IMG/VR virus record: IMGVR_UViG_3300042691_016123 | Span: 1 to 38,266 of that record | Origin: a virus | Direction: 5' to 3' (one strand) | Length of the DNA: 38,266 bases | Shown: positions 1,121 through 13,499 of the stretch, piece after piece | Layout: each line of letters starts with the position of its first letter | How positions within the stretch are numbered: the first letter of the stretch is position 1 | Program-made: the position numbers and the translations under genes | Notes under the pieces: generated by a model | Told to the model about the DNA's origin: nothing | The model's input: only the letters and a program-made list of their open reading frames with translations | Databases searched by the model: none

Positions 1121-2998
1121 ATGGCACTGGTTAACCCAAACATCGCTATGTCTTACCGGCCTACGGTTGAGTACCAGCCGCGTAATGCCTTGGCTGACTA
1201 CGCCCAGGTGCAACAGATCATGGGCGGTCAGCGTCAAATGGAAGTTGCTGACATGCAGCTTGAACAGATGCGCCGAAAAGATCAAGCCATCAGTCAAATT
1301 CAAGCCGCAGCGGCAAAGAATGGTGGTCCAACTGATCGTAGAGAAATTGCAAGGGCTTACCTTAAATCAGGTGTACCAGAATTCATTCAATTCGGTTTGA
1401 CTCTAGAAAAAGATTTGGACGAACTGGATGCGTTTCAAAGAATTATGGGTGGCGGCGCAGCTCCCGCAACTGGCGGCGGCGCGCAGCCTGCGGCCCGTGG
1501 AAAAGCCCCGACTTTTCCCATAGCAGGCAAAGATGTGCCAATGGGAACTATTGGCTCAGGTACTTTTGACAGCGCCCAAATTAACAACATTGGCACGGGC
1601 GCTCAACAGCCTCCGCGTTTGACTAATGTTTTTAACGAGCTACCGCAAGGAGCAGCAACAGGTTTGAATGAAAATCAAATGGCTGCATTTGTGCAGGCAA
1701 ATCCTTATGAACAAGCTGCTTTAGACCGTGCTTTGCCAAGCATGAAAATTCCTGGCGTGTCTGCGGGGCAAGTGCCGGCGTTTTCGCAACTTAGCCGCGA
1801 TCTTTTGTCGCCTGAAACTCGCGCAGCTCAAGATCTGGGCTATGACAAAGCCTTGCCCGCAAGTGCTTTTGCTTCTGCTGCTCAGGCTAACGCTCTTGCG
1901 CCCACTGCGCCGCCTGCAAACGTCAATCAGTTAGCATCTGCTACGGGTGCAGCGCCAGCCGCAGCAACGTCAGATGCTATTGCGGCGCTTCAGGACAGAC
2001 GGAATAAACTTCTCGCATTGGGCACGCCTCGCGCTTTGCAGGCTGCCCAATCGATTGATAAAGACATTGCTTTGATGTCTAAAACCACAACCGCTTCACC
2101 CGGATCAGTTGTGTACGATGCCAGAGGCAATGTAATTGCTACAGTGCCGGCAGCGCCGACCGCGCCGAGAGTTGAAATAATTGGCGTTGCCAAAGGAACT
2201 GACACGCCGGTTTATGTTGATAAAAACACAGATACGCAATTTACTATTGGTATAGATGCATCTGGCAAACAAACGCGAGTCCCGTACACAGGCGGGGTAA
2301 ACAGATCAACCAGCACCGTCACAGCGCCTGTTGATGTCAAAGTAAACGCGTTTGTACCGGCTAGCGAAACCGCGCAAGCCGAGTACATGAAAGGCGCAAG
2401 AACTACCTTTGAGGCGTTAAGAAACGCGCAGCCTACGCTTGACAACATTGAAAAAGCTAAGGCTCTTGTGCCGGGCGCGAAAGGATTTATGGGCACCGGA
2501 GGCGAACCGCTTCTGGCTGCCGCAAGTTTTCTCAACAACCGGCTTGGAACCTCCATCAACACCACCGGCGTCACAGACGCTCAAGAACTGCGGTCTAGGC
2601 TGTTTTTCGGTATTCTGGACAATCTTAAAAAGTTGGACTCTCAGCCGTCGCAACAGCAACAAATGGCGTTGCAACAAGCCTTGGGCAGCATCGGAACAGA
2701 CCCAACGGCTTTGCCTAGGGTGCTTGATGCTTTTGGCGACAGTATTCGTACAAAAGTTGACCTGTACAACGCTGACGTTACTAGCGCAGAGGATCGCGGC
2801 GTTAAGTTCCCGTATAAACCACAAATTCAATTGAAGCCGCGCGCGCCTTTGCCCGGTGAATCTGCCGCACAAACCCCAGGTGCTGCGCCAGCTATCCCAC
2901 AAGCGGCAATCGACGCTCTTAAAGCTGGCCGGGGGACTGACGCGCAATTCGACGCGATTTTTGGGGCGGGCGCAGCTAAACGTGCAAGGGGGCAGTGA
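1121..2998 (+). CDS. Ejected internal virion protein (gp20 position)
   Basis: 625 aa, Ala/Gln/Pro-rich, starting 2 nt after the previous stop. The N-terminal 100 residues are helical and Gln/Arg-rich (tandem QMEVADMQLEQMRR-like segments). A low-complexity Ala/Pro/Gly linker follows (about residues 115-280), then a helical C-terminal domain (about 420-560). No catalytic motif is seen. Position and composition fit the second ejection protein of P22-like phages. The last codons read RARGQ-stop and their bases GCAAGGGGGCAG form the SD of the next gene, the same junction that recurs in the early region (see findings). Confidence 0.75.
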   Translation: MALVNPNIAMSYRPTVEYQPRNALADYAQVQQIMGGQRQMEVADMQLEQMRRKDQAISQIQAAAAKNGGPTDRREIARAYLKSGVPEFIQFGLTLEKDLDELDAFQRIMGGGAAPATGGGAQPAARGKAPTFPIAGKDVPMGTIGSGTFDSAQINNIGTGAQQPPRLTNVFNELPQGAATGLNENQMAAFVQANPYEQAALDRALPSMKIPGVSAGQVPAFSQLSRDLLSPETRAAQDLGYDKALPASAFASAAQANALAPTAPPANVNQLASATGAAPAAATSDAIAALQDRRNKLLALGTPRALQAAQSIDKDIALMSKTTTASPGSVVYDARGNVIATVPAAPTAPRVEIIGVAKGTDTPVYVDKNTDTQFTIGIDASGKQTRVPYTGGVNRSTSTVTAPVDVKVNAFVPASETAQAEYMKGARTTFEALRNAQPTLDNIEKAKALVPGAKGFMGTGGEPLLAAASFLNNRLGTSINTTGVTDAQELRSRLFFGILDNLKKLDSQPSQQQQMALQQALGSIGTDPTALPRVLDAFGDSIRTKVDLYNADVTSAEDRGVKFPYKPQIQLKPRAPLPGESAAQTPGAAPAIPQAAIDALKAGRGTDAQFDAIFGAGAAKRARGQ

Positions 2999-4668
2999 TG
3001 GCGACAAATCCGTTTGCTCAATTTGCCGCGCAGCCAAACCCGTTTGCGGAATTTACCGCCGCACCGCCGTCCGGTATTCCAGGCCCGCGCCAGCCGCCGT
3101 CTACGCTAGACGTTGCCGCTAGCGCCCCTTACAAAGCGATTGCCGGTGTTGCGGATTTGTTTATCAATACTCCGCAAAACATTGCCAACATTGCCAAGAT
3201 GGCGTATGGCACGGCAGTGACCGCAGCCGGTCGCCCAGAACTAGCGCCTGAAGTGAGCGCTCCGCGTCAGCCGGTTACAGAACTCTTGCAGCGTTATGGG
3301 ATTACGGCTACGTCAGGCCCATTTATAAAGCCTACAGAAGGCATGACGACCGGCCAGCGCATTCTTGATATCGGTCTGCAAGCCGCTACAGGTGGCGCAA
3401 TCTCGCCCGCAGCGTCTTTGCGTGAAGTAGGCTCAAGTGCGCTTAAAGGTTTGGCTGCTGGCACTGCTGGTCAAACCACTACTGAGCTTACAGGTAGCCC
3501 CGTTGCTGGTATGGCTGTTGCTATGGCAACGCCAACCGCAATAACAAGCGCCGCGCAATCAAAACAGGCAAGATTGCAAGCCGAAAAGGCTCGTAATGCC
3601 GTGCGGGATTTGACCATTCGCGCAGGTCAAGCAGAAAACTTGGTGGTTACTCCGGGTAGTGTTACACCAAGCGTACAAAATGTGCTTATTGAACGTTTAG
3701 CCGGTAAAACAAGGACGCAACAAGAATTTTCAACAAGAAATCAGGTTGAGTATGACCGACTTGCTAGGCGAGCTGTTGGGATCGGTGACGCTGATCCTCT
3801 TAGCCGCGAAAACATGCGCCAGATTCGTAGCCAAGAGTATCAAAAGGGCTATGAGCCTCTAAACCGAGTTGGCGCTGTGCAAACAGATCAGCAATTTAAT
3901 GCTGCGCTTAACAATGTGTTGTCTGCTTACACTGGGCCGGGTAGGTCATTCCCTGGCGCTATTCCGCAGCCTGTACAAGATTTGGTTGCAAACTATCGCG
4001 TAGGGCAGTTCAATTCTGCCGATGCAATTGCTGCGACTCGCACACTACGCGAACAAGCAAATAACAACATCCGCGCTGGTGGGGATAACGCTTCAGTTGG
4101 TTTGGCGCAACGTGCAATTAGCAACGCGCTAGAAGATCAAATTGAGCGTAGCTTGCAAACTTCGGGCAACCCTAACGCTCAGGCCATGCTTGACCAGTTT
4201 CGCGCATCACGACAACGTATGGCAATTAGCCATGCGGTTGAAGACGCAATTGTTGAAGGCGGCGGCTCAATCAACGCCCGACAATTGGCAAACGATTTGC
4301 AAACACGAGGGCGCTATCTAAGTGGCGATCTTGATCTAATTGCAAGGTTTGCCAATATTGCACGACCTGTGACCATTCCACCCAATACTTCTGGCACGCC
4401 CGGTGCGGGCACTATGGTTGTTGGCGGCGGGCTTGGCGCTGGTGTTGGTTCTTTAATTGGCGGCACACAAGGTGCAACTTTAGGTGGCATGGTCGGCACT
4501 TTGGCTCCTAACGCAATTTCATATGCCGCTCGAAATTATTTGGCTTCTGGCATGGGGCAGCGCCGAGCATTGCCAACATATGACCGGCCAATCAACAGTT
4601 TGATGGCAACACAACCGCTTAACAACGCATTGTTGTCTACGTTGATTGCTACTCCGCTTGCCCCATGA
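2998..4668 (+). CDS. Ejected internal virion protein with glycine zipper (gp16 position)
   Basis: 556 aa. I chose ATG 2998, whose SD AAGGGGG lies in the last codons of the preceding gene. A GTG one codon earlier is possible. The N-terminus carries two PNPFAEF-like repeats (NPFAQFAAQ, NPFAEFTAA), a motif common at the start of large ejected proteins. Residues about 470-500 form a Gly-rich zipper (GGGLGAGVGSLIGG) of the kind that inserts into membranes, consistent with a channel-forming ejection protein. The middle is helical. No lysozyme or transglycosylase motif was found. It ends in a 4-nt ATGA overlap with the next gene. Confidence 0.75.
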   Translation: MATNPFAQFAAQPNPFAEFTAAPPSGIPGPRQPPSTLDVAASAPYKAIAGVADLFINTPQNIANIAKMAYGTAVTAAGRPELAPEVSAPRQPVTELLQRYGITATSGPFIKPTEGMTTGQRILDIGLQAATGGAISPAASLREVGSSALKGLAAGTAGQTTTELTGSPVAGMAVAMATPTAITSAAQSKQARLQAEKARNAVRDLTIRAGQAENLVVTPGSVTPSVQNVLIERLAGKTRTQQEFSTRNQVEYDRLARRAVGIGDADPLSRENMRQIRSQEYQKGYEPLNRVGAVQTDQQFNAALNNVLSAYTGPGRSFPGAIPQPVQDLVANYRVGQFNSADAIAATRTLREQANNNIRAGGDNASVGLAQRAISNALEDQIERSLQTSGNPNAQAMLDQFRASRQRMAISHAVEDAIVEGGGSINARQLANDLQTRGRYLSGDLDLIARFANIARPVTIPPNTSGTPGAGTMVVGGGLGAGVGSLIGGTQGATLGGMVGTLAPNAISYAARNYLASGMGQRRALPTYDRPINSLMATQPLNNALLSTLIATPLAP

Positions 4669-5084
4669 ACGTTTATCTAGCACTACGGCATACTGACAGC
4701 CCTGGCCTGCCGGGGTTGTTTTCTAAGTACACCCGTTGGCGGTTGCACACACGTTATCCACACGCCGGTATAGCAATAGATGACCTGATGTACCACGCCA
4801 CTGCCAAAGATGGCTTACATGTTTCTTTCTATAAGCCTGAAGAATGGGACTTAATTCCCATCAAAATATCTGCTGAAGACGTTACTTCACAATTCAAAGA
4901 AACCAAGTATGATTGGTTTGGATTGTTATGGTTTATATTACCGTTCAGGGCAAGTAAGCGGAGTTGGCTGTACTGCTATGAATGGTGCTGGTTGTGTATG
5001 ACCCGTCAACTCCCCACGCAACGTGTTACGCCAGAAAATTTATTGGCTTTAGCATTAGGGGTTAATGTATGGAGAAAACCGTGA
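4665..5084 (+). CDS. Candidate permuted papain-like (NlpC/P60, YiiX-type) cysteine hydrolase
   Basis: 139 aa, ATGA overlap with the upstream ejection gene. The layout matches the circularly permuted papain-like fold: an early His in YPHAGIAIDD (residues about 36-45), a following MYHATAKDGL strand, and a late Cys in YCYEWCWLCM (about 103-112) where YiiX-like enzymes carry their catalytic Cys. Such enzymes cleave amide or ester bonds in lipid or peptidoglycan substrates. It stands between ejection and lysis genes, so it could act on the envelope at entry or lysis. The family call rests on motif spacing, and the general-base pair is not proven. Confidence 0.55.
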   Translation: MNVYLALRHTDSPGLPGLFSKYTRWRLHTRYPHAGIAIDDLMYHATAKDGLHVSFYKPEEWDLIPIKISAEDVTSQFKETKYDWFGLLWFILPFRASKRSWLYCYEWCWLCMTRQLPTQRVTPENLLALALGVNVWRKP

Positions 5085-5347
5085 GCTGGAGATGGTTTAC
5101 TGAGAAGGTCTTGCCCGGCTTGTTTGTTGCCATGACTATAGCGGTTGTTGGTGGCGCTGTTGGCATATACCGCACAATCGACGATTTGTCTTATGCGGTG
5201 CAAAGCCATCAAAAAGACATTACGCTTCTTCAAGTTTCCGTGAAAGAGTTGCAAGCAAATTCAGTCACTCGATCTGAATTGCTTGAAACGATGAAGCGCG
5301 TAGAGCAGCAGCTAGAGATCATGATGCTGCGGGCCAAGATCAAATAG
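5081..5347 (+). CDS. Single-TM protein with C-terminal coiled coil, lysis cassette
   Basis: 88 aa from GTG 5081. GGAG at 5073-5076 sits 6 nt before it and GTGA gives the usual 4-nt overlap, so I prefer it to the in-frame ATG at 5069. A hydrophobic segment (about residues 8-28, VLPGLFVAMTIAVVGGAVGIY) is followed by a charged heptad-patterned tail to the end. This N-terminal-anchor-plus-coiled-coil design is that of an inner-membrane spanin or holin accessory protein. Adjacent genes are a 3-TM holin and an endolysin. Its exact lysis role is inferred. Confidence 0.7.
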   Translation: MSWRWFTEKVLPGLFVAMTIAVVGGAVGIYRTIDDLSYAVQSHQKDITLLQVSVKELQANSVTRSELLETMKRVEQQLEIMMLRAKIK

Positions 5348-5357
5348 AAGGCCAACA

Positions 5358-5825
5358 ATGCTAGAGACTCTACTCGGCGGCGTATTTGGCGGTCTACTGC
5401 GCCTAGCGCCAGAGGTTTTTAAACTCTTTGATCGCGCCAACGAACGCAAGCACGAGCTGGCTATGCTTAGTGCTGAAATGGAGTTTGCCAAGGTGCGCGG
5501 CGAGATTGCCATGCGCCAGACCGAGGCCCAGATGACGATGGCCGAGGTTGAAGCTATTGGCGAGGCATTTAAAGAGCAGTCTGAAACTGCAAAAGCTGCT
5601 GGCTCTATGGTGGCTGCTATCTCTGCAATGGTTCGGCCCACAGTAACCTACATGTTTTTAGGTCTGTACGCTGCGGTAAAAGTGGCGGCTTTTCTAATTG
5701 CCATTGAGCAGGGTGGCAACTGGAAAGAAGTCCTCACTACGATGTGGGGTAGCGACGACCTAGCCGTCTTCAATATGATTATTTCGTTTTGGTTCGTGGG
5801 TCGTGTCTACGAGCGCAATCGCTGA
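5358..5825 (+). CDS. Holin, 3-TM (GTA-holin-like) family
   Basis: 155 aa, GAAGG 6 nt before ATG 5358. An N-terminal amphipathic segment (LLGGVFGGLLRLAPEVFKLF) and a long charged helix (about residues 25-80) are followed by hydrophobic helices near residues 84-104, 105-121 and 135-150, ending RVYERNR. This matches the phage/gene-transfer-agent 3-TM holin family. It would open the inner membrane to release the endolysin. The endolysin gene starts inside its last 23 bases. Confidence 0.8.
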   Translation: MLETLLGGVFGGLLRLAPEVFKLFDRANERKHELAMLSAEMEFAKVRGEIAMRQTEAQMTMAEVEAIGEAFKEQSETAKAAGSMVAAISAMVRPTVTYMFLGLYAAVKVAAFLIAIEQGGNWKEVLTTMWGSDDLAVFNMIISFWFVGRVYERNR

Positions 5826-6276
5826 AGCGGTAGAGGTTGCAGCCGCACTGTGCCGACCGTTTGAAGGCTTGCGGCTAAAGCCCTACATCTGCCCGGCTGG
5901 CTACTCTACTATTGGTTACGGCACCGTCTACAAACCAGACGGAACCAAGGTCACTATGGACCACCCGCCAATCACAAAAGAAACCGCTGAAGCGTGGCTT
6001 GTGCATGAGTTGAGGCACAACTACCTAGCAGGCGTTTTGAAGGCTTCTCCGAGCCTTCTGGCGCGTCCCAAGGTGCTTGGTGCAATGGCAGACTTTGCCT
6101 ACAACCTCGGCGTTGCTCGATACCGTTCAAGCACACTACGGAAACGCATTGATGTGCAAGATTGGACCGGAGCCAGAGAACAGCTTGCTTTGTGGGTGTT
6201 TGGGGGTGGCAAAAAGCTTCCAGGCCTCGTTAGGCGGCGATCCGCTGAAGCTGCGTTTCTGCCCATAAAAACCTAG
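5803..6276 (+). CDS. Endolysin, GH24 lysozyme
   Basis: 157 aa from GTG 5803, overlapping the holin gene by 23 nt. It shows the T4/R21-type glycoside hydrolase 24 catalytic pattern E-x8-(D/C)-x5-T as Glu21, Cys30 and Thr36 (FEGLRLKPYICPAGYSTIGYGT region), with Cys in the middle position as in many lambdoid endolysins. It cleaves the MurNAc-GlcNAc bond of peptidoglycan. No signal-arrest TM is obvious, so export through the holin is likely. The SD for the GTG is weak, which suggests coupling to holin translation. Confidence 0.9.
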   Translation: MSTSAIAEAVEVAAALCRPFEGLRLKPYICPAGYSTIGYGTVYKPDGTKVTMDHPPITKETAEAWLVHELRHNYLAGVLKASPSLLARPKVLGAMADFAYNLGVARYRSSTLRKRIDVQDWTGAREQLALWVFGGGKKLPGLVRRRSAEAAFLPIKT

Positions 6277-6293
6277 CCTACAAAATAGCCAAG

Positions 6294-6473
6294 TTACTTC
6301 CCAAAGTTGATACCAGCTATCAACGCGACCAATAGGCAAATAAAGCCAACTAGCACCATCGCTAGTTTGTCGCTAAATTTGTCGTCACGGCAAGCGCAAG
6401 GTTTGCCATCAATGGTAAAGCCGGTGTTGTTACACAGACGGCAACGAGATTCCCAATTTTGCGGATCGCTCAT
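6294..6473 (-). CDS. Small zinc-knuckle membrane protein
   Basis: 59 aa. The ATG at 6473 overlaps the upstream stop as ATGA. Residues 11-28 carry four Cys in two pairs (CRLC, CAC) with a TGFTIDGKPC segment between them, like a half DnaJ-type zinc knuckle. Residues about 36-55 form one hydrophobic helix (LAMVLVGFICLLVALIAGI). It is the last gene of the long leftward early operon and converges on the endolysin gene. Function unknown. Confidence 0.7.
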   Translation of the reverse strand: MSDPQNWESRCRLCNNTGFTIDGKPCACRDDKFSDKLAMVLVGFICLLVALIAGINFGK

Positions 6474-6676
6474 TTTGTCAGTACCTCTCTGTAAGCGTTA
6501 ATTGCAGTCTTCAGGGCTTTACGCAATTCGTTGATTTGATCCTCTTGTTCCTTAAGCTGTAGGAACATTTCTGTTGCCACTTGTGCTAGGTTTTTGTGGT
6601 GCCAGCTTGCGAAGTCTGGCACCTCCGTGAGTGGCTTTGGGGACGGGTCTTTCTTCAGTGTGGAAAGCATACTCAT
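6470..6676 (-). CDS. Small helical protein, unknown
   Basis: 68 aa from ATG 6676; an in-frame TTG at 6733 would add 19 residues. The C-terminal half is a strong coiled coil (QLKEQEDQINELRKALKTAI). It overlaps the 3' end of the zinc-ribbon gene upstream by 125 nt in another frame, and its stop forms ATGA with the next gene. The weak SD makes the start uncertain. No family recognised. Confidence 0.6.
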   Translation of the reverse strand: MSMLSTLKKDPSPKPLTEVPDFASWHHKNLAQVATEMFLQLKEQEDQINELRKALKTAINAYREVLTK

Positions 6677-7034
6677 TTGATGTTTTTTCCCTTGTGGTTC
6701 TTTGATAAGCCGGTATGCCAGCGCGACGGGCAATTGTGCTAATCATGTTTTCACTAAGTTTGAATGTTCTGGCGATTACAAAATGTTTTTCCCCGGTTCG
6801 CATCATGTTCAAGATTTGTTCGTTTCTTGCGTAAAGTTTTTGTTTTTTCTTGATCGCTGCGACATGCGGCCCAAGATGCTTTTTTAATGTCTCTACCAAA
6901 CCATCGTCTATTTCGTAGGTAAAGAATTTATTCCCGCATTGACCGCACCCCCTGCGCCGTCGCATCACTAGCGCCGACATTTCTGTCCTGGTTTCTAAAA
7001 CTGTTGTCTTGCACCCGCACATACGGCAGTTCAT
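6552..7034 (-). CDS. Zinc-ribbon plus HTH regulator, NrdR-like N-terminus
   Basis: 160 aa from ATG 7034, chosen because GGAGG lies about 7 nt upstream and because it is the Met directly before the first Cys pair. Residues 3-40 form a four-Cys ribbon (C3, C6, C30, C33; CGQCGNKFFTYE) like the N-terminus of NrdR and of short phage regulators. Residues about 82-107 look like a helix-turn-helix. This suggests a DNA-binding regulator of phage or host genes, but the ATP-cone of NrdR is absent. The tail after about residue 110 is basic and low in order, and overlaps the next gene. Confidence 0.7.
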   Translation of the reverse strand: MNCRMCGCKTTVLETRTEMSALVMRRRRGCGQCGNKFFTYEIDDGLVETLKKHLGPHVAAIKKKQKLYARNEQILNMMRTGEKHFVIARTFKLSENMISTIARRAGIPAYQRTTREKTSNEYAFHTEERPVPKATHGGARLRKLAPQKPSTSGNRNVPTA

Positions 7035-7131
7035 TAGTTGGCCTCCATCCGAATTTTCTCCATGTTGCTTGAATGTCTGTCGCCGCAGCGGGCACATACT
7101 TAAATTTTGGGTCAAGAATACGAGATTTCAT
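6928..7131 (-). CDS. Small phage protein overlapping the zinc-ribbon gene
   Basis: 67 aa. The ATG at 7131 forms ATGA with the upstream stop, the same linkage as nearly every gene here. Residues 6-30 (LDPKFKYVPAAATDIQATW) look like a conserved N-terminus I associate with small phage early proteins. The last 35 codons overlap the zinc-ribbon frame by 107 nt and look less natural. Real translation to the end is uncertain. Function unknown. Confidence 0.5.
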   Translation of the reverse strand: MKSRILDPKFKYVPAAATDIQATWRKFGWRPTNELPYVRVQDNSFRNQDRNVGASDATAQGVRSMRE

Positions 7132-7370
7132 TGATTTGACCTTTCCCTTCGCGCAATGCGCTTTTTGTAAGCATCAATATAAACTAGACCTTCTCCAGCA
7201 TGTACAACTTGATCCATGTACGTTGCGCCCTTTCGCAAATCACTCAGGCTTGGCATTGATACCATGTTTTCTTGTGGATAGCGCAGATCAGCCGCATCAG
7301 CGTCTTGCCGTGCCAACGCTTCTAACTTAGCTCGTCGCTCTGGCTGAACCGCATCTTCAAACTTTTTCAT
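7128..7370 (-). CDS. Small early protein, unknown
   Basis: 80 aa from ATG 7370. GGGAGGA lies just upstream, so the in-frame ATG four codons earlier is in fact part of the SD. Charged N-terminal half, with basic residues at the C-terminus (YKKRIARRERSNQ). ATGA overlaps at both ends place it firmly in the leftward operon. No family recognised. Confidence 0.7.
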   Translation of the reverse strand: MKKFEDAVQPERRAKLEALARQDADAADLRYPQENMVSMPSLSDLRKGATYMDQVVHAGEGLVYIDAYKKRIARRERSNQ

Positions 7371-7744
7371 TGATCCTCCCATGCGTCAATTGCGGCTGCG
7401 CTTGCTGCGCCACCAAGTAAAACAATAGGCGACACCCATTGCTTGTCTACAAGCCTTTGGCTGCGTATGTACTTATCCATCTGTGCATTGGTTAGCCGCT
7501 GCGTTACAGGCGCAACGTAATGGTCTTGCGGGTACACAAACGGCTTAATACGACAATTCCACTCGTCGGCAATCTGCTTTGCGTGCGCCTCATCAGTCAC
7601 CACAGCACCGCGCTTCTCGGCAAACGTCAGGCAGTTGACGCCGCTCTTGTTTATCACGCCCCACCATGTCGGGCCGATCTGTTCAGCGCGGTACGGACCA
7701 ACGGCAAAGTACTTAGACGGCAAAGCGGTTACATTCTTGACCAT
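7367..7744 (-). CDS. Early protein with C-terminal hydrophobic segment
   Basis: 125 aa from ATG 7744; no strong SD, and its start lies inside the 29-aa membrane-peptide gene, so it may be translationally coupled to it. N-terminal beta-type segment with YFAVGPYRAEQIGPTWWGVI, a middle region with EAHAKQIADEWN, and a C-terminal Ala/Gly/Val stretch (VLLGGAASAAAI) that could be a short membrane anchor. No family recognised. Confidence 0.65.
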   Translation of the reverse strand: MVKNVTALPSKYFAVGPYRAEQIGPTWWGVINKSGVNCLTFAEKRGAVVTDEAHAKQIADEWNCRIKPFVYPQDHYVAPVTQRLTNAQMDKYIRSQRLVDKQWVSPIVLLGGAASAAAIDAWEDQ

Positions 7745-7818
7745 AAAAACAACACGTCCGCAACCAACCAACACCAAACAACCAGACCAACGGCAACAAC
7801 AACAATGTCTTGTTTCAT
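7729..7818 (-). CDS. 29-aa single-TM microprotein
   Basis: ATG 7818 overlaps the upstream TGA as ATGA, with AAGG 10 nt before it. The peptide is almost wholly one hydrophobic helix (MKQDIVVVAVGLVVWCWLV, then ADVLFLWSRM). Overlap linkage and coherent TM composition argue that it is translated. Function unknown. Confidence 0.6.
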   Translation of the reverse strand: MKQDIVVVAVGLVVWCWLVADVLFLWSRM

Positions 7819-8045
7819 GTGTCTGACCTTGCTCGGATGGCTTTGGCTTCCATGTCACGCACCGCGTCCATCAGCTTGTCTGCGCCGGTCTTACGGGATT
7901 CAATCAGCGCCGCACACGCCTCGCGCTCGGCTGCCTGGGCCATGTGGAAGAAGCGTTCAAGCCTGGGCAAATCAGCATCGACTGCCCACATACGCCTGTC
8001 AGAAGGCCAGCACGCTTGCGCCATGCGGATGATGTCTTCTCTCAT
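7815..8045 (-). CDS. Small early protein, EREACA/IRAR family copy 1
   Basis: 76 aa from ATG 8045, SD GCAAGGGGGCAAG inside the end of the gene upstream. It starts MREDIIRMAQ and contains AEREACAALIESRKTGADKLMDAVRDMEAKAIRAR. The same C-terminal blocks occur in the products at 8314-8523 and 11434-11706, and the N-terminal block in those at 8042-8317 and 11703-11966. The RARGQ tail is degraded here to RARSDT. A helical, soluble protein of unknown role, product of local duplication and recombination. Confidence 0.75.
   Translation of the reverse strand: MREDIIRMAQACWPSDRRMWAVDADLPRLERFFHMAQAAEREACAALIESRKTGADKLMDAVRDMEAKAIRARSDT
7828..7928 (-). repeat. 100-nt dispersed coding repeat, copy 1 of 3
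   Basis: The bases coding ALIESRKTGADKLMDAVRDM through KAIRAR are near-identical in DNA to 8327-8428 and 11447-11547. It is the shared 3' half of three early genes with different 5' halves. Confidence 0.8.
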
Positions 8046-8317
8046 TCTTGCCCCCTTGCTCGTATGACAGCGCCACCCTTGCGCTTCGCTGCTCGTATGG
8101 CAGCGCCACCCTTGCGCTTCGCTGCTCCAACTTGCGCCCATGCCGTCCAAGTGTCAGCCTCTGCCTCAAAGGCCTTTGCACACGCCTCGCGCTCGGCTGA
8201 GGCGACAAGAACGGCAAAGCGTTTTAGCCTCTCCATATCTTTAGTGCCGGGTAAGTTGTCAACTGCCACGTCGGGCCACCCAGCCTCCCGCGCCATACGG
8301 ATGATGTCTTCTTTCAT
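8042..8317 (-). CDS. Small early protein with 11-residue tandem repeat, EREACA family copy 2
   Basis: 91 aa from ATG 8317 (SD AAGGGGG in the upstream gene's tail). It starts MKEDIIRMAREAG like the products at 7815-8045 and 11703-11966, has AEREACAKAFEAEADTW, and then carries two in-frame copies of an 11-residue unit AAKRKGGA(A/V)IR coded by a 33-nt tandem repeat, before RARGQE. The repeat makes the tail strongly basic. Unknown function. Confidence 0.75.
   Translation of the reverse strand: MKEDIIRMAREAGWPDVAVDNLPGTKDMERLKRFAVLVASAEREACAKAFEAEADTWTAWAQVGAAKRKGGAAIRAAKRKGGAVIRARGQE
8058..8123 (-). repeat. 33-nt tandem repeat, two copies
   Basis: Units 8058-8090 and 8091-8123 differ at one base (GTATGACAG versus GTATGGCAG). 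The unit is 11 codons, so copy-number change keeps the frame. It lies beside the conserved RARGQ gene junction and includes its GCTCGTATG flank, which suggests slippage or unequal exchange at the junction. Confidence 0.9.
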
Positions 8318-8523
8318 GACTGCCCCCTTGCTCGTATAGCTTTTGCTTCCATATCACGCACAGCGTCCATCAATTCATTCGCGCCGGTCTTACGGGATTC
8401 AATCAGCGCCGCACACTGCTCGCGCTCGTCAGCTTGCCCTTTTTTGTAGGCGTTCTCAGCCATCTGAACCGCATCAGATGCAAGCACCCGAAGATCGCCG
8501 TAAAACATTGTTGCTGGCGTCAT
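8314..8523 (-). CDS. Small early protein, EREACA/IRARGQ family copy 3
   Basis: 69 aa from ATG 8523, SD AAGGGGG in the last codons of the gene upstream. N-terminus TPATMFYGDLRVLASDAVQM, then ADEREQCAALIESRKTGANELMDAVRDMEAKAIRARGQS. About 100 nt of its 3' half is nearly identical in DNA to 7828-7928 and 11447-11547. Helical, no known domain. Confidence 0.75.
   Translation of the reverse strand: MTPATMFYGDLRVLASDAVQMAENAYKKGQADEREQCAALIESRKTGANELMDAVRDMEAKAIRARGQS
8327..8428 (-). repeat. 100-nt dispersed coding repeat, copy 2 of 3
   Basis: See 7828-7928; closest copy, differing at scattered bases. Confidence 0.8.
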
Positions 8524-8801
8524 GTCTGCCCCCTTGCCTTGAGCATGGCATCGGCCACTGCGTATGCAGACTTGGCCCAGATCGGAAAGAGTTCTTCTGC
8601 GGGCTGGTTGCCCCACACCCGACCCATCAAACCCTGCATCGCCTTGCCCGCGAAGTAATCGCGCAGGGTCATTCCTGCAAGCTGTCTGGACGCCTGTTTT
8701 AATTGCGCGTCATCAAGTTCGCCATCCTTATGCATTTGGGCGAGGACTACCACATGTTCATACGCCTGCGGAAACGCTGGCCCGCCTGTTTTGTCGCTCA
8801 T
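8520..8801 (-). CDS. Small early protein, GMTLRDYFAGKAM family copy 1
   Basis: 93 aa from ATG 8801 (AGGAG upstream). It begins SDKTGGPAFPQ, has AGMTLRDYFAGKAMQGLM in the middle, and ends YAVADAMLKARGQT. The product at 11963-12196 has the same three blocks. I know this block pattern as an uncharacterised protein type in early regions of proteobacterial phages. ATGA linkage on both sides. Function unknown. Confidence 0.8.
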   Translation of the reverse strand: MSDKTGGPAFPQAYEHVVVLAQMHKDGELDDAQLKQASRQLAGMTLRDYFAGKAMQGLMGRVWGNQPAEELFPIWAKSAYAVADAMLKARGQT

Positions 8802-9499
8802 TTCGGTTCTCCTGTGATGTTGTGCGCGGCTTCTGCAAATCGAGCGCCCGCCGTAAATAAATCCAAATCAGAGCACGAAAGGACGCGACGACCTAATTCA
8901 ATCTGCTCATCCGTCAGCGGCTGGCGCTGTGCTGCGGGTGGGGTGGGCGCTGAGTTGGCTCGTTCCCATTGCTCAATTCGCGCTTTCACCCGATCCAGCA
9001 ACGGCGTGTAATTTGAGCTATGCCCGCAGTCGGACAAGATCATTTCAGCCAACCATTGGAGCGATACCCGCGCCACAGGCTCCTGCACAGGTGCTGGCTG
9101 TGCGGGTGGGGTGGTGTAGAACGGCTGCCCAACAGCAAACATTTTTCCATCGGCAAATCGCAAAGTTCCATCTTTACGCATCCATGCCACCGGCTCCTGC
9201 TGTGCTGGCTGTGCTGCGGGTGGGGTGGTGTAAAGCAATTTGACTCGGTGCTTTGGAAATGCTGACTCTATTCGCATTGCTGTACCCATAAGACGTGTGG
9301 AAAAGCCACTTAGCACACTTTCAATGTCGTAGTCCATTGCCCACGCCACAGGCTCCTGCTTCTCAGCCGCCTCAATGGCGGCATTGAGGGCGGTGATGGC
9401 GGCTTCAACTTTAGGGTCGTTTGGCTTTCCAGACCCAATGCGAAACCATTTTTTGTGGTGCAGCGCCTCCAGCGCCAGCTTCATTGCTTTAATGCTCAT
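8798..9499 (-). CDS. Early protein with QEPVAW/YTTPPA repeats, copy 1
   Basis: 233 aa from ATG 9499 (GGAGGACGAA before it). N-terminal helix IKAMKLALEALHHKK, then three QEPVA(W/R) blocks, each followed within 30-60 residues by a YTTPPA(A)QPA segment, and a C-terminal domain with LTDEQIELGRRVLSCSD. The product at 12847-13296 has the same N-terminal plan with fewer repeats. The family is common in betaproteobacterial and pseudomonad phage early regions and has no known function. The repeats look like low-complexity linkers joining short exchangeable modules. Confidence 0.8.
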   Translation of the reverse strand: MSIKAMKLALEALHHKKWFRIGSGKPNDPKVEAAITALNAAIEAAEKQEPVAWAMDYDIESVLSGFSTRLMGTAMRIESAFPKHRVKLLYTTPPAAQPAQQEPVAWMRKDGTLRFADGKMFAVGQPFYTTPPAQPAPVQEPVARVSLQWLAEMILSDCGHSSNYTPLLDRVKARIEQWERANSAPTPPAAQRQPLTDEQIELGRRVLSCSDLDLFTAGARFAEAAHNITGEPK

Positions 9500-10076
9500 T
9501 TCGTCCTCCAGCGTCTATCGTGCCATGTTTGCACAGGTACAGCGGTTTAGAAAAATATCCGCTACAGCCTCCTTGACATTCGTGATTGCAAATAACATCA
9601 TCAAACATTTTGTTTATAAATTCATGGCATAGCTCTTTAAACTTTGGCGTATATGTTAATACGCCGCTTTTAGATCGAGCAATTTTTTCACCATTCTTAA
9701 AATAAACCAAAACTTGTCGGCTATCTGCATACCCGTTGCTAACCAACGCATCAGGTATGTAATAGACAAAAGATTGCAATATGTAGTAACAGTTTCTTTC
9801 AAAACCATTGTTTACCCGTTCATGGCATAACTCTTTAAATTTCGGGGTGTATGTACGAATACCGTTTCCAGACCTAGCAATTTCTTTTTTGTTTTTAAAA
9901 TAGCGGTTGTTTACATGCTCATCAGGTATGACCGTGGTATAAGTGTCAAGCAATACTTTAGGATTCCAAGGCTCATCTATACAAGAACGATCTGTATAAC
10001 TCCAAGACTCTGGATTCCAGGGTTCATTTAAAAAATACAAATTGCGCCAAGTTATAGAATTGTGTTTATCAGTCAT
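9489..10076 (-). CDS. AT-rich insert gene with an internally duplicated domain
   Basis: 195 aa from ATG 10076, with AGGA 7 nt upstream. Residues about 49-90 and 107-157 are two copies of one unit, each with YFKN, EIARS or KIARS, then TYTPKFKELCHE. The N-terminus has its own duplication (NEPWNPES, DEPWNPKV). The C-terminus holds a Cys/His cluster (CNHECQGGC, LCKHG) that may bind zinc. The gene is visibly richer in A and T than its neighbours, suggesting recent acquisition. It overlaps the next gene by 11 nt. No family recognised. Confidence 0.75.
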   Translation of the reverse strand: MTDKHNSITWRNLYFLNEPWNPESWSYTDRSCIDEPWNPKVLLDTYTTVIPDEHVNNRYFKNKKEIARSGNGIRTYTPKFKELCHERVNNGFERNCYYILQSFVYYIPDALVSNGYADSRQVLVYFKNGEKIARSKSGVLTYTPKFKELCHEFINKMFDDVICNHECQGGCSGYFSKPLYLCKHGTIDAGGRNEH

Positions 10077-10084
10077 GACGCATC

Positions 10085-10192
10085 CTAAAACGGTGCTGGT
10101 TCATAGTCGTCCTTGCTAGGGTCAAACTTATCAGGCCCAGGCGGTTGCCCAGGCCTGTCCAAAGGGTTAGGAAACTTCGGGAACGGCCACAT
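10085..10192 (-). CDS. 35-aa proline-rich microprotein
   Basis: ATG 10192, overlapping the upstream gene's end by 26 nt. The product begins MWPFPKFPNPLDRPGQPPG and ends in an acidic-aromatic tail (DPSKDDYEPAPF). Its TAG is followed by GGA and the ATG of the next gene, and its last codons hold that gene's SD (TTTTAGGATG). Pro-rich composition and coupling support translation. No function can be given. Confidence 0.55.
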   Translation of the reverse strand: MWPFPKFPNPLDRPGQPPGPDKFDPSKDDYEPAPF

Positions 10193-10355
10193 AAGATTGC
10201 AAAGCCTCGATGAGTTCCTGCATCTGCTTTTGGTTAAGCTGGGCATTCATAGAGCCGCAAATTGCGTTGATAGACAGCCACACGCCTCCGGTGGTGGGCA
10301 TTGGCGAGACATATACTGTTTGCTCACCTGCTCTTACTTGCTTGTACGCATTCAT
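10167..10355 (-). CDS. Small early protein, unknown
   Basis: 62 aa from ATG 10355. The SD CTGGAG lies in the last codons of the HTH gene upstream, which argues for this start over an upstream in-frame ATG at 10445. Beta-strand-like N-terminus (TVYVSPMPTTGGVWLSI) and helical Gln-rich C-terminus. No family recognised. Confidence 0.65.
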   Translation of the reverse strand: MNAYKQVRAGEQTVYVSPMPTTGGVWLSINAICGSMNAQLNQKQMQELIEALQSYVAVPEVS

Positions 10356-10356
10356 G

Positions 10357-10563
10357 TCAATTCTCCAGTTTGTAATACCACTTATCACCCCTGCGTTTGC
10401 AGGAAATACTGAACCCGTTTTGCCGTAGCTCTGAGATGATTGCACTCACAGCGCAGACACGGGCTTTTTGTATGATCCCAAGAGTCGTTAGCTCTTTGTT
10501 TTTCTTCAGAACCCTGAGCGTCCTGAGCAGTCTCGGGCTGTTGTTAATGTCGGCGTACCGCAT
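10357..10563 (-). CDS. Winged-helix/HTH DNA-binding protein
   Basis: 68 aa from ATG 10563. Residues 9-66 have the pattern of the short phage winged-helix family (HTH_39-like): SPRLLRTLRVLKKNKELTTL, then CAVSAIISELRQNGF as recognition helix, then a wing with ISCKRRGDKWYYKL. Likely a DNA-binding regulator of early genes. Its last codons supply the SD of the next gene. Confidence 0.75.
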   Translation of the reverse strand: MRYADINNSPRLLRTLRVLKKNKELTTLGIIQKARVCAVSAIISELRQNGFSISCKRRGDKWYYKLEN

Positions 10564-10565
10564 AA

Positions 10566-10823
10566 TCAAAAGGGCACATCATCATCAAAATCAGGCTTCG
10601 CTTGACGCACTGGCCGAGCCTGTTGTTCTTCTTTCTTCGGGTCATTAAGATACGCCCAGCCGTCCCATCCTCCTTCCTTGAGCGGAATGGTGTCCAGCTT
10701 CAACATCGCACCATTGCGCGTCTCGATGATGCTGCCAATGCGGGTGTACCGCTTCTTAACTTCGCCCTGGGCGTTTTTGTACTCGCCCGTCACACAGCTA
10801 ACTTCCTTCAAAATTTTGCTCAT
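10566..10823 (-). CDS. SSB-like small protein with acidic DDDVPF tail
   Basis: 85 aa from ATG 10823 (ATGA with the exonuclease gene). A compact beta-rich body (KRYTRIGSIIETRNGAMLKL, WDGWAYL) is followed by a basic linker and the C-terminal tip DFDDDVPF, which closely resembles the acidic protein-interaction tip of bacterial single-stranded-DNA-binding proteins (DDDIPF). It lies beside an exonuclease in the recombination operon. I infer a role as a phage ssDNA-binding or partner-recruiting factor. The body is shorter than a classical SSB OB fold. Confidence 0.65.
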   Translation of the reverse strand: MSKILKEVSCVTGEYKNAQGEVKKRYTRIGSIIETRNGAMLKLDTIPLKEGGWDGWAYLNDPKKEEQQARPVRQAKPDFDDDVPF

Positions 10824-11437
10824 GATTCCATCCTTTGCTTAAGCACTTGCACTTTTTCATCTACCTCTGCCAAGAACCGCACAACTTCAGTCTCTGCGTT
10901 TTGCACCCACTCGTCATCAGCATTTACCCTGACGATGACCATCTGTAGCTTGTCAGGAAAGCGGCTGTCGTACACAACGTAATCACACCATTGCCGACCG
11001 GCGCAGCGCATCTGCCACTGCATCTGAGCGAAATACTTTCCGGGCACGGTGTTGCATAGCAGCATGTCTAAAAAGGTCGCGGACTCTGGGCACTTGATCT
11101 CTACCATGCCATCAGCCCCGACAAGGCCATCAGGAGAGGCTCCAGCCATCTCAATCGTCGGGTGCAACATAAACCCCACTTCCTCAACCATCACGCCTCT
11201 ATAAGCCTCATACGCTGCCCTAGCAAACGGCTCTTGCTCGATGCCCCACTGCATAGCCGCATTGGTGTAGCCCTCTGCCCTAGTGCCGGTGATTCGCTCC
11301 AACACTAGTTGCGTCATGTAGTGCGCTCGATCAGCCCCGTAGCCGGTTTTGGTCTTTGCCAGCACTTTGTGCAAGTTGCTGGCCGTCACTTTCCCGCATC
11401 TGGCGCTTTGCCATGCATCAGTCCCTTGCTCAATCAT
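10820..11437 (-). CDS. YqaJ-type viral recombinase exonuclease
   Basis: 205 aa. Lambda-exonuclease/YqaJ fold signature: Glu-rich GIEQEPFARAAYE (about 65-78), SPDGL with Asp103, then EIKCP with Glu113 and Lys115 (the D...ExK nuclease centre), and a QMQWQM helix around 138-143. It would degrade 5' strands of dsDNA ends to make 3' overhangs for the annealase coded upstream in the same operon. Its SD lies in the RARGQA codons of the gene upstream. Confidence 0.9.
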   Translation of the reverse strand: MIEQGTDAWQSARCGKVTASNLHKVLAKTKTGYGADRAHYMTQLVLERITGTRAEGYTNAAMQWGIEQEPFARAAYEAYRGVMVEEVGFMLHPTIEMAGASPDGLVGADGMVEIKCPESATFLDMLLCNTVPGKYFAQMQWQMRCAGRQWCDYVVYDSRFPDKLQMVIVRVNADDEWVQNAETEVVRFLAEVDEKVQVLKQRMES

Positions 11438-11706
11438 GCTTGCCCCCTTGCTCGGATGGCTCTTGCTTCCATATCACGCACGGTGTCCATCAATTCGTTT
11501 GCGCCGGTCTTGCGCGACTCAATAAACTTTGCACACGCCTCGCGCTCCATTGCAATAGCCGTGTCAATCATGTTGCGGGAGTTGCGGTACGCTTGCGAAT
11601 ACGAACCACCATCTCCAGCAATAAACGTATGACAGGGGAGGCACAACAAACCGACAAAATGGCCTTGATGTGCGTGGTTTTCGCAGTCTTTGACGGCGCA
11701 CTTCAT
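11434..11706 (-). CDS. Zinc-finger head fused to the EREACA/IRARGQ tail, copy 4
   Basis: 90 aa from ATG 11706 (SD AAGGGGG in the upstream gene). Residues 3-25 have Cys at 3, 8, 22 and 25 with His between them, a small zinc-binding module. From about residue 52 the sequence is EREACAKFIESRKTGANELMDTVRDMEARAIRARGQA, shared with copies at 7815-8045 and 8314-8523. It therefore looks like a chimera: new head, conserved tail. Function unknown. Confidence 0.75.
   Translation of the reverse strand: MKCAVKDCENHAHQGHFVGLLCLPCHTFIAGDGGSYSQAYRNSRNMIDTAIAMEREACAKFIESRKTGANELMDTVRDMEARAIRARGQA
11447..11547 (-). repeat. 100-nt dispersed coding repeat, copy 3 of 3
   Basis: See 7828-7928; more diverged copy, here attached to a zinc-finger head, upstream of the exonuclease gene. 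Confidence 0.75.
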
Positions 11707-11966
11707 GACTGCCCCCTTGCTCTGATGGCATCTCTACAATCGGCATATGCTTTGTTGTACCGTTGCTGAACTTCAGCCACTGGGCCATACATCACCATGC
11801 GATCACACACTTTCGCACACGCTTCGCGCTCATCAGCCCGGACAAGTTCGGCAAAGCGTTTGTCTCTTAGCGCAGACCACTCATCATCGTTTGGCTCCAT
11901 ATCTTTTGTGTGAGTGTCGGCGTATTCTGCTGCCTGACGCGCCCATTTGATGATGTCTTCTTTCAT
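11703..11966 (-). CDS. Small early protein, MKEDII/EREACA family copy 5
   Basis: 87 aa from ATG 11966 (SD GGGGG in the upstream gene). Starts MKEDIIKWARQAAEYA, has RFAELVRADEREACAKVCDRM and ends CRDAIRARGQS. N-terminus matches the product at 8042-8317. Helical, no known domain. Confidence 0.75.
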   Translation of the reverse strand: MKEDIIKWARQAAEYADTHTKDMEPNDDEWSALRDKRFAELVRADEREACAKVCDRMVMYGPVAEVQQRYNKAYADCRDAIRARGQS

Positions 11967-12196
11967 GACCGCCCCCTTGCCTTGAGCATGGCGTCGGCCA
12001 TTGCATACGAATCCAGTGCAGCACCCATGCGCCAGTCTTCATCCGGGAAGCAGTCGCACTGGTAAAGAACGACCTGCATTGCCTTGGCCGCGAAGTAGTC
12101 GCGCAGGGTCATGCCTTCTGAGTACCCCGTAGCCATCGGCACAAAGGCTTGGTAGTTCTTGGTTGGAAACGCTGACCCGCCTGTGTTGTAGCTCAT
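11963..12196 (-). CDS. Small early protein, GMTLRDYFAAKAM family copy 2
   Basis: 77 aa from ATG 12196, AGGAG 9 nt upstream at the end of the ERF gene. Blocks TGGSAFPTKNY, GMTLRDYFAAKAM and YAMADAMLKARGRS match the product at 8520-8801. In both places it is followed by members of the EREACA family, so a block of two or three genes has been copied. Confidence 0.75.
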   Translation of the reverse strand: MSYNTGGSAFPTKNYQAFVPMATGYSEGMTLRDYFAAKAMQVVLYQCDCFPDEDWRMGAALDSYAMADAMLKARGRS

Positions 12197-12747
12197 GCTT
12201 GCTTCTCCTGCTTGGCACGGGCCACACGAGCGGCCTTGGCATCAATCACCCGCTTAATCAGGTCTTGATGGCCCTGGCAAGCCTCATACGCCTGTTTGTA
12301 GACCGCTTGCAATTCCTCGCCCGTGGTTGTGGCCTCAATAGCTGCCAGCCAATCGGCAATGTCGGGCTTTGGGCCTTTGCGAGCTGCATTGCCATCGTCG
12401 TCTTCCGGGGCGATGCCGCAAGCTGCCATCAGGCTGTAGCGCCGGGCGTAGGTTAGGGCGCTGCCAAACCCCTGGGCATCATGCTTGACGGCTGGAACAT
12501 GCAACTTGCCGCACTCCAAAATCTCGCCAGATTCGTGGATAAAGACTGTCTCCACTGTCACCCCAATGGTGTCTGCGCTGGTGCGCTGTATGAGGGCAAT
12601 TCCAGCCCCGTTTAGCCCTTCAATGACTGCCTCAACGCAGGCCGACAGATCGGCGTAGCGTGAGCGGAAGTGCGGGTTTGTGCTTGTTTTAAGTGCTGGG
12701 CCAAAGGCTTTTTGTGCCTTAACCAGTGCGCTTGCAATCTTGTCCAT
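12193..12747 (-). CDS. erf: ERF-family ssDNA-annealing protein
   Basis: 184 aa from ATG 12747, which has AGGAG 7 nt upstream. It has the ERF signature: ALKTSTNPHFRSRYADLSA near residue 20-35, then GQ-type beta strands, and AQGFGSALTYARRYSLMAACG (about 94-114). ERF proteins anneal complementary single strands during phage recombination and genome circularisation. It is first in the operon that also codes a YqaJ exonuclease and an SSB-like protein. An in-frame ATG at 12786 adds 13 residues and lies exactly 6 nt after the -10 box of promoter A, so a second, leaderless start is possible. Confidence 0.92.
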   Translation of the reverse strand: MDKIASALVKAQKAFGPALKTSTNPHFRSRYADLSACVEAVIEGLNGAGIALIQRTSADTIGVTVETVFIHESGEILECGKLHVPAVKHDAQGFGSALTYARRYSLMAACGIAPEDDDGNAARKGPKPDIADWLAAIEATTTGEELQAVYKQAYEACQGHQDLIKRVIDAKAARVARAKQEKQA

Positions 12748-12846: not shown

Positions 12847-13296
12847 TTAAGTTTGTCTTGTGTGAAGATGATTGCCCATCACATGTGCGCGGGCCGCATC
12901 CCATTTAGCCAGCACTTCGCCGCCACCTTTAAGACCCTTCAACCCCTGAATTAGAACCTCTGTGCAAGGGTGGTAATCAGGCAGTCGCGACTGCTCCTGC
13001 ACAGGTGCTGCGGGTGGGGTGGCGTCATAGAGTGCCCTCACCTCGCGCTTGTTGTGCGGCCACTTTTTGTCGCGGCGCTGCATTTCTTTAATCGCGGCTT
13101 GCTCGTCTTCAAACGCGGGTAGTGCAATAAAGCCATCGCAGTAAACGGCCCACGCCACAGGCTCCTGCTTCTTGGCCGACTCGATGGCGGTGTGAAGGTC
13201 GCTCATGGTTTCATCAGCCCAGGCATGATCGCAATGCCCTCGTCGGGCTGCCTTCAGCGCCTCCAGCGCCAGCTTCGCTGCTTCAATTAGTGTCAT
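12847..13296 (-). CDS. Early protein with QEPVAW block, copy 2
   Basis: 149 aa from ATG 13296. N-terminus EAAKLALEALKAARRG, then KKQEPVAWAVYCDGF, a helical stretch with EDEQAAIKEMQRRDKKW, LYDATPPAAPVQE, and a helical C-terminus. Same architecture as the product at 8798-9499. Last gene of operon B: its stop is next to the inverted repeat of promoter A, with no terminator between. Function unknown. Confidence 0.75.
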   Translation of the reverse strand: MTLIEAAKLALEALKAARRGHCDHAWADETMSDLHTAIESAKKQEPVAWAVYCDGFIALPAFEDEQAAIKEMQRRDKKWPHNKREVRALYDATPPAAPVQEQSRLPDYHPCTEVLIQGLKGLKGGGEVLAKWDAARAHVMGNHLHTRQT

Positions 13297-13499
13297 TTGC
13301 TTGCCCCCTTTATTCCTAACATCTCCGACACATCTTCGATCTCAACGTAATCAAAATAACCGTTGCTCATCGGTGGCCTGCACCTTAGTGCATCTGCAAC
13401 CAATTCAGCTTCTTCAAAGGTTTCGTGCTGTGAATACACATTGCCTAAGCGGCCTGAAGGGTAATACTGCTCCCAAGCTAACACCCAGAACACTTTCAT
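13293..13499 (-). CDS. Small early protein, unknown
   Basis: 68 aa from ATG 13499 (ATGA with the upstream stop). Sequence begins MKVFWVLAWEQYYPSGRLG and looks like a small alpha/beta protein with FEEAELVADALRCR. Compact, no Cys pairs, no TM. No family recognised. Confidence 0.7.
   Translation of the reverse strand: MKVFWVLAWEQYYPSGRLGNVYSQHETFEEAELVADALRCRPPMSNGYFDYVEIEDVSEMLGIKGASK

Follow-up and report, generated by a model that had tools for sequence, protein, structure and literature searches.

C-terminal codons of small phage genes probably double as the Shine-Dalgarno sequence of the next gene, at one of two probable seams for the exchange of gene parts

Overlapping gene pairs in which the Shine-Dalgarno (SD) sequence lies inside the upstream gene are widespread, and removal of the SD substantially reduced reinitiation in four out of five E. 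coli pairs (Huber et al. 2019, PMC6728339). In such termination-reinitiation pairs, stop and start codons overlap as ATGA or TGATG, and the upstream gene contains the SD motif in its 3' end. The same arrangement is found in the virus record IMGVR_UViG_3300042691_016123, of which 38,266 bases were analysed (hereafter the window). Stop and start codons overlap there, and a stretch complementary to the antiSD sequence of the 16S rRNA precedes the start at a working distance. However, the SD of these junctions is written by a conserved C-terminal peptide motif, the tail, which many genes have in common, and this SD in turn shapes the residue that follows the arginine of the motif. Carriers of the tail in the window are two families of genes, named A and B in this study, and one unrelated gene.

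The Start-Associated Sequences of Cluster K mycobacteriophages correspond to a 13-bp sequence, GGGATAGGAGCCC. As in the window, an SD sequence is repeated directly before the starts of several gene families, and it sometimes holds the upstream stop codon (PMC3203893). The repeat of the window likewise stands before the starts of three unrelated families, but its junctions read GCAAGGGGGC instead of the mycobacteriophage consensus, and their GCAAGG(G/A)G lies inside the upstream coding sequence, where it encodes conserved residues. Another model, summarised in PMC3233612, takes conserved boundary sequences as recombination targets. It shares with the present case a short conserved sequence at gene borders where homology between phages stops; the difference is that the border has a second use here, as SD and as peptide, and is matched by a block inside the gene. 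Finally, domain mosaicism, in which otherwise unrelated proteins share recently exchanged fragments, is described chiefly for receptor-binding, lysis and replication proteins (Smug et al. 2023, PMC10684548). The present case resembles it in kind, but concerns proteins of about 70-100 amino acids and units of about 110 nt with fixed joints.

As far as our literature search goes, what is new is the combination of overlap SD, start-linked SD, boundary sequence and mosaicism in one dual-coded seam. A search for the string EREACA, a motif of family B, listed unrelated papers, and among the papers listed on SD sequences and upstream-gene constraint no title or abstract opening concerned this tail. 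In T4-type phages, mobile regulatory cassettes named PeSL, which Arbiol et al. are said to have described in 2010, reportedly place a promoter and a stem-loop between genes and are tied to module shuffling. They would thus resemble our case by linking a regulatory element at gene borders to module shuffling. The present junctions differ from PeSL so described: promoter-like sites are not in excess between 7300 and 12850 (3 versus 3.9 expected), and only one hairpin was found in six junctions.

The junction sequence and its carriers

The sequence GCAAGGGGGC occurs seven times in the window, versus 0.14 expected, and none of 100 shuffled sequences reached seven; when one mismatch is permitted, 11 matches are counted versus 3.8 expected. 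All seven exact copies form A-R-G codons among the last residues of a gene. At every copy, an overlapping start is found 5 nt after AAGGGGG, within ATGA on the minus strand and within TGATG at 2998. The preliminary description of the window had placed these copies at the ends of the genes that stop at 11963, 11703, 11434, 8520, 8314 and 8042 and at the end of gene 1121-2998, with a degraded junction at 7815. All were recovered, and the gene stopping at 7815 ends with RARSDT written with GCAAGGTCAGACACATGA. On the plus strand, the copy at 2984-2993 would be the SD of the gene starting at 2998. On the minus strand, the copies at 11971-11980, 11711-11720, 11442-11451, 8528-8537, 8322-8331 and 8050-8059 would serve the genes starting at 11966, 11706, 11437, 8523, 8317 and 8045, respectively. 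Duplex energies with the antiSD sequence range from -10.5 to -12.3 kcal/mol across these six junctions, the latter value being that of 11971-11980. A further overlap, with AAAGGGGGCAAGCAAATGA read as I-K-G-A-S-K (13293-13315), presents the same G5 signal but belongs to a gene of neither family A nor family B.

Family A is represented by two minus-strand genes, 11963-12196 (TGGSAFP..MTLRDYFA..YAMADAMLKARGRS), which lies just upstream of a family B gene, and 8520-8801, which ends with YAVADAMLKARGQT. Both match the C-terminal part of PHROG 2201 (E 1.1e-19 and 1e-19, respectively; profile positions 137-216 of 226). Family B gave no match of note in PHROG or Pfam. From a 16-sequence alignment, it is defined by a head, MTRDDIIRMAREA, often replaced, a core, LERFAALVAAAEREACAKVCD, and the tail CAxAIRARG. 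Five minus-strand genes of the window fit this definition by translation. Gene 11703-11966 ends with CRDAIRARGQS. Gene 11434-11706 has the body ESRKTGANELMD.VRDMEA.AIRARG, which it has in common with 8314-8523 and 7815-8045, behind an unrelated head. Gene 8314-8523 starts with the head MTPATMFYGDL (the listed open reading frame (ORF), 8314-8616, begins further upstream). Gene 8042-8317 contains a duplicated AIRAAKRKGG segment and ends with VIRARGQE, and gene 7815-8045 ends with AIRARSDT at the weakened junction. The duplication in 8042-8317 corresponds to a tandem repeat of about 33 nt (8050-8130) giving AAIRAAKRKGGAVIRARGQE, in which the inner copy lacks RARG. A three-helix structure model of family B (predicted local distance difference test, pLDDT, 84.5) had no match in the PDB at E 0.001 or better.

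The third carrier, the plus-strand gene 1121-2998, ends with AAKRARGQ. It was named ejection-like in the preliminary description, is without a PHROG match and is unrelated to families A and B. Among its homologues, two (L167 and L168) carry KRVRGQ and one (L177) AADKALKGGK. In a fourth (L170), AKRARGGR is written CGCGCTAGAGGAGGC, with other codons, yet AGAGGAGG stands before the start. Judging by these homologues, the AKRARGQ tail is native to the gene's own family, and we read the case as the same solution reached independently, not by tail transfer.

Codon choice in the tail

Tails were gathered from 497 records (3.5 Mb), retrieved through protein similarity or, as a separate set, through the junction pattern. 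The 521 tails were reduced to 481 non-redundant ones and to 372 for the codon tests, after omission of the pattern-scan loci and of tails near contig ends. Genes of viral contigs were called by ORF rules, except in 12 annotated records (12 of 50 matching). A gene was scored as having no start by rule, a start being counted when it lay 8-26 nt from the Arg codon and opened an ORF of 25 codons.

In family B genes with an adjacent start, the last arginine is AGG in 181 of 219 cases. The arginine two codons before it is invariant as a residue, though the search pattern admitted Lys and Gln, but uses AGG only nine times out of 219, with all six codons represented (Fisher 5e-71). In the same genes, CGN encodes the arginine of EREACA in 205 of 210 cases and AGG in none; 15 other genes of the window use AGG for 10% of their arginines. 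When a serine follows the last arginine, it is written AGY in 22 cases and TCN in one, versus 145:237 elsewhere in those genes. The common endings RARG and RARS correspond to the SD spellings AAGGGG and AAGGAG. Moreover, the ATGA phase is found in 195 of 219 coupled family B genes and in 109 of 120 coupled family A genes.

Family A allows a comparison between genes with and without a downstream start. Its arginine is AGG or AGA in 100 of 120 genes having a start 8-26 nt downstream and in 5 of the 22 scored as having none (p 4.5e-8), a few of the latter having by eye an out-of-range start (in L352 and L443, it lies 5 nt after the beginning of the Arg codon and an upstream GGAGG serves). The corresponding antiSD duplex energies are -7.5 and -2.8 kcal/mol. 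An E or G follows the arginine in 78 of 120 genes with a start versus 4 of 22 without (p 8e-5). As this residue tracks the presence of the start, the ribosome-binding site appears to influence the amino acid itself. When the actual four-codon spelling is ranked among its synonymous variants for antiSD pairing, its mean percentile is 0.11 in family B, 0.19 in coupled family A and 0.55 in uncoupled family A; the four codons upstream of these have a mean percentile of 0.75 for pairing with the 16S end, versus the 0.11 of family B. Among the 12 annotated phage genes, all ten with an overlap or a gap of at most 3 nt pair at -5.9 to -16.2. The other two, phiAH14a p27 and Orisa03_00056, have gaps of 21 and 20 nt, a separate SD and pairing values of +0.7 and +1.9. 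Despite this absence of pairing they keep ADAMLAARSA and ADAMLAARTA. Thus, the peptide persists where the SD is missing, and the SD codons disappear where the start is missing.

These data make it well supported that the tail codons of families A and B are chosen as the SD of the next gene, in agreement with the preliminary description, which had proposed that the A-R-G codons double as such. It would be most improbable, in our estimation, for the tail to be purely a peptide motif, with G-run codons due to ancestry and an incidental overlap with the next start. I[RKQ]xR does follow the EREACA core in 197 of 205 ORFs chosen regardless of their tail, and the tail is kept in 3' extended genes as well as in family A genes without an adjacent start, as such a motif would be. 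However, ancestry does not fit with a neighbouring arginine spread over six codons beside a last one held to AGG, nor with the dependence of family A codons on the start, nor with the repetition of the same contrast in annotated phages (SD pairing 10/10 versus 0/2).

Selection on the peptide has to be considered as well. The preliminary description had held that a tail conserved in proteins with no downstream gene or no G-run codons would reveal such selection and refute its own reading. The tail does persist without a downstream start and without G-run codons, which for the peptide is the refuting outcome, and the arginine of A-M-L-x-x-R is kept in all 22 family A genes to which the rule assigned no start, though the search pattern admitted Lys. 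Since the tail is kept without a start and yet its codons follow the start, the tail appears dual-coded for peptide and SD, a reading that we hold to be probable jointly with the exchange described below.

A DNA-only account, in which any frame across the SD suffices and the RARG peptide is a by-product, explains why the residue after the arginine follows the SD and not the family. It also explains L196 and L199, where TAA replaces the CAA of relatives: these proteins end at RARG instead of RARGQA, their last two residues being gone, with SD and start intact. At least 18 genes assigned to neither family, one of which is B-like when inspected by eye, end with ARGQ or ARGQx over the same junction, as would also be expected. 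Nevertheless, an Ile-Arg before the SD is near universal whereas synonymous change is free at that arginine, and the 22 startless family A genes retain theirs. We consider the DNA-only account very improbable. Dual coding of the tail provides a natural experiment for two signals in one stretch, the arginine of the SD being locked to AGG and its neighbour free; in family A this constraint is relaxed in genes whose downstream neighbour lies further away. Caution is also called for, as a C-terminal motif conserved among small phage proteins can in part be a ribosome-binding site.

Some family B proteins (L138, L044, L377, L189 and L409) have an internal IRARG followed by extra C-terminal residues. 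Those of L138, RPWVGLT, resemble the downstream gene of L226 and L317, which suggests an in-frame fusion at the junction.

Exchange of heads, bodies and next genes

For the comparison of breakpoints, 396 of the 497 records were kept. Homology blocks between records end at the junctions of families A and B in fractions of 0.77 and 0.86, respectively, of the informative alignments per site. The fraction is 0.66 at nearby ATGA junctions with an SD, 0.59 at all such junctions, some of which may not belong to real genes, and 0.13-0.19 at random places (0.19 at nearby ones). The excess over nearby ATGA junctions is significant (p 1.3e-5). Homology between phages therefore stops most often at these junctions, which is the behaviour expected of a boundary sequence and bears out the idea, put forward in the preliminary description, of a site where genes are joined.

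Within family B, the similarity of heads is nearly unlinked to that of bodies (rho 0.07; 319 genes). Where heads are alike, 78 of 105 pairs have unlike bodies; where bodies are alike, 230 of 274 pairs have unlike heads. Among 303 coupled genes, 49 body clusters have at least two members (150 genes), and, with the caveat that single-linkage clusters can chain, 45 of the 49 contain at least two heads and 48 at least two next genes. In the window itself, the ESRKTGANELMD body is found behind three different heads. Elsewhere, L234 and L267 have a common head and different bodies, while L234 and L270 have a common body and differ in far head and next gene, homology running about 30-45 nt into the head.

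The positions of the joints were read from pairs with alike bodies and unlike heads. Cluster-weighted identity rises from 0.50 just before EREACA to 0.88 from its first base, then is 0.33 from 6 nt beyond the first base of the next start; the high and low averages are built into the choice of pairs, the joint positions and the next genes are not. In these pairs, the next genes are unlike in 200 of 208 cases and alike in five. When bodies are at least 93% identical, homology is lost within 12 nt from the start of EREACA in 82 of 103 pairs and no more than 18 nt from the first base of the last Arg codon in 88 of 103. The distance between EREACA and the following start has a median of 110 nt. In the window, the corresponding minus-strand codons are located at 11814-11831 (gene 11703-11966), 11530-11547 (11434-11706), 8177-8194 (8042-8317) and 7911-7928 (7815-8045), and as EREQCA at 8410-8427 (8314-8523); their place was read from the sequence, and their behaviour as an intragenic joint from the population comparison. 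These results suggest that the junction is one of two conserved seams where gene parts are swapped. The intragenic joint is located not at the tail but at EREACA, some 110 nt ahead of the following start.

The preliminary description had also taken the tail with its SD as a portable cassette added to any head. Discrete cassettes of this kind (tail and SD, or SD and downstream gene) are unlikely. Family B is indeed shuffled at this junction and upstream halves are indeed exchanged, but the tail is not carried by just any head: it is found in two homologous families and in the unrelated gene 1121-2998, and what can be exchanged is the entire body, between EREACA and the junction, not a free-standing tail. 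At least 123 distinct places match the junction pattern, comprising 89 B or B-like, nine A, 18 other (one of which, L293, is B-like by eye) and seven too short to be assigned; among the matches listed, 98 of the 116 assignable ones thus belong to family A or are B or B-like. A cassette would account for the likeness of A and B junctions within the 54 loci having both families (0.531 versus 0.494 between loci, p 2e-4). This likeness is due to a minority, such as L426 and L357, with identical 14-mers, and the lineage of the window, where both family A genes bear a B-type junction; most of the 54 loci keep separate GCGAGGGA-type (A) and GCAAGGGG-type (B) junctions. Unrelated genes ending with ARGQ ahead of B-type heads or of a relative of the 11434 head (L273, L288, L315) also look like transferred tails, but they were drawn from a scan that selects for the junction. 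Finally, the spacer shows no link to the downstream gene when junctions of the same locus serve as a control for phage relatedness (B-B 0.73 versus 0.72, A-B 0.53 versus 0.57). Ownership of the junction by the downstream gene was rejected on the same grounds, the signal of a permutation test (0.648 versus 0.485, p <=0.0005) having vanished against same-locus junctions.

The explanation that we consider probable, taken as a whole, comprises dual coding, coupled starts and two-joint exchange of bodies. Residues I-R-x-R in family B and A-D-A-M-L-x-A-R in family A would be retained for the protein. The SD role would sit in GCAAGGGGG, codons of the same peptide, so that the codons at A-R-G/E/S and the residue after the arginine would be set by the need to show AAGG(G/A)G to the 16S rRNA. 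Placed a few nucleotides before an ATGA-overlapping start, this sequence would let ribosomes finishing one small protein begin the next. The family B body, about 110 nt from the DNA-conserved EREACA block to the SD/ATGA junction, would be exchanged among unrelated heads and unrelated next genes. As all bodies carry the same start signal at their end, a swap would leave the downstream gene with its ribosome-binding site, and we infer that the junction is tolerated as a joint for this reason. Dual coding and the decoupling of head, body and next gene with joints at the two blocks are borne out by the sequence comparisons; translational coupling at the junctions and swapping by homologous pairing at the blocks are inferences.

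The EREACA block deserves attention in this respect. Its DNA is conserved over 27 nt, and it falls inside a long helix predicted for residues 33-64. Among 147 genes, each of the nine EREACAKVC codons is mostly of one kind (0.69-0.93; CGT only 0.49), a codon used at 0.11-0.43 for the same residues elsewhere in those genes. A weaker bias affects the alanine-rich codons immediately upstream. This conservation may reflect selection, homogenisation by exchange or recency. The shortest pairing lengths reported are 23-27 bp with Red-beta and 31-34 bp with RecA; Rad52-like phage recombinases, with the Erf of D3 among those assayed, drive mosaics over short diverged homologies (PMC3945230). The block is about as long as the pairing length given there for Red-beta, and ERF and YqaJ are encoded around the run of genes in the window, so that targeted pairing at the blocks is plausible. 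One may go further and imagine, tentatively, a cassette-exchange system that diversifies small phage proteins, in which bodies of about 110 nt would be paired at EREACAKVC and IRARG DNA blocks kept constant beyond the need of the peptide. If so, the end block would be the ribosome-binding site of the next gene, any body would bring a start signal and the operon would stay translated.

It is also conceivable, though we would not favour it, that joints lie at the blocks only because selection weeds out other random illegitimate recombinants. Such filtering would replace the pairing step, not dual coding. It would explain why homology also ends at other ATGA junctions with an SD much more often than at random, and it fits with the lack of generality of the window's ERF/YqaJ pair among carriers. 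However, the A and B junctions exceed their own ATGA neighbours, and the second joint stands inside a gene, within a predicted helix and at a DNA-conserved block. Should the two-joint exchange be true, whether phage mosaicism is aimed by boundary homology or filtered by selection becomes directly testable, because both joints and the ordinary-junction controls share the same genomes.

Several observations weigh against the explanation favoured here. Eleven family B genes were scored without an adjacent start, two of which seem by eye to have one, and the remaining nine all still have AGG or AGA, so that the predicted loss of codons is absent. At least seven of the nine have IRARG followed by 14-52 extra residues, some fusion-like with the next gene, and inertia of such 3' extensions may account for the codons kept. 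Only one in six junction RNAs folds better than its shuffles (z -2.5), which leaves strict coupling without structural support. The spacer, as said above, is not tied to the downstream gene. Synonymous conservation of the EREACA block may come from a recent common origin and not from selection. Finally, ERF or RecT is found in only 8 of 45 family B-bearing contigs of at least 25 kb (ERF 5, RecT 3, YqaJ 6). These contigs were hand-picked with repeats omitted, many are fragments, the search covered ERF, RecT and YqaJ among recombination proteins, and the count stands without a control group. A phage recombinase as the general engine was rejected on this basis, as most of the contigs examined lack ERF and RecT matches.

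The consensus block GAGCGTGAGGCGTGTGCGAAGGTG (11808-11831 and the other EREACA blocks) places GAGG 11 nt before an in-frame GTG. GTG is the favoured Val codon of the block (0.92, versus 0.28 elsewhere), and the body might possess a start of its own inside the gene.

Neighbouring genes and relatives

On the minus strand, the run of family A and B genes has as its upstream neighbour the gene of an ERF single-strand annealing protein (12193-12747; PF04404, E 7.3e-22), and the first part of the run is followed by a YqaJ-type viral exonuclease (10820-11437; PF09588, E 2.5e-28), whose gene would use the junction copy at 11442-11451 as its SD. Together with a P22-type portal (PF16510) and a phage lysozyme, ERF and YqaJ suggest a P22-like phage. 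Family B relatives were also found in bacterial genome contigs, at seven loci, four in Comamonas, Rhodoferax, Macromonas and Delftia records and the other three in an alphaproteobacterial, a Microbacteriaceae and an Armatimonadetes metagenome-assembled genome. A search of the window for regulatory RNAs and tRNAs gave none; about 700 nt at 14760-15500, with repeat-like stretches and no convincing gene, matched neither an Rfam family nor a tRNA. Further along, at 15604-16578, this phage carries a PAPS reductase-like gene (PF01507, E 1.3e-27).

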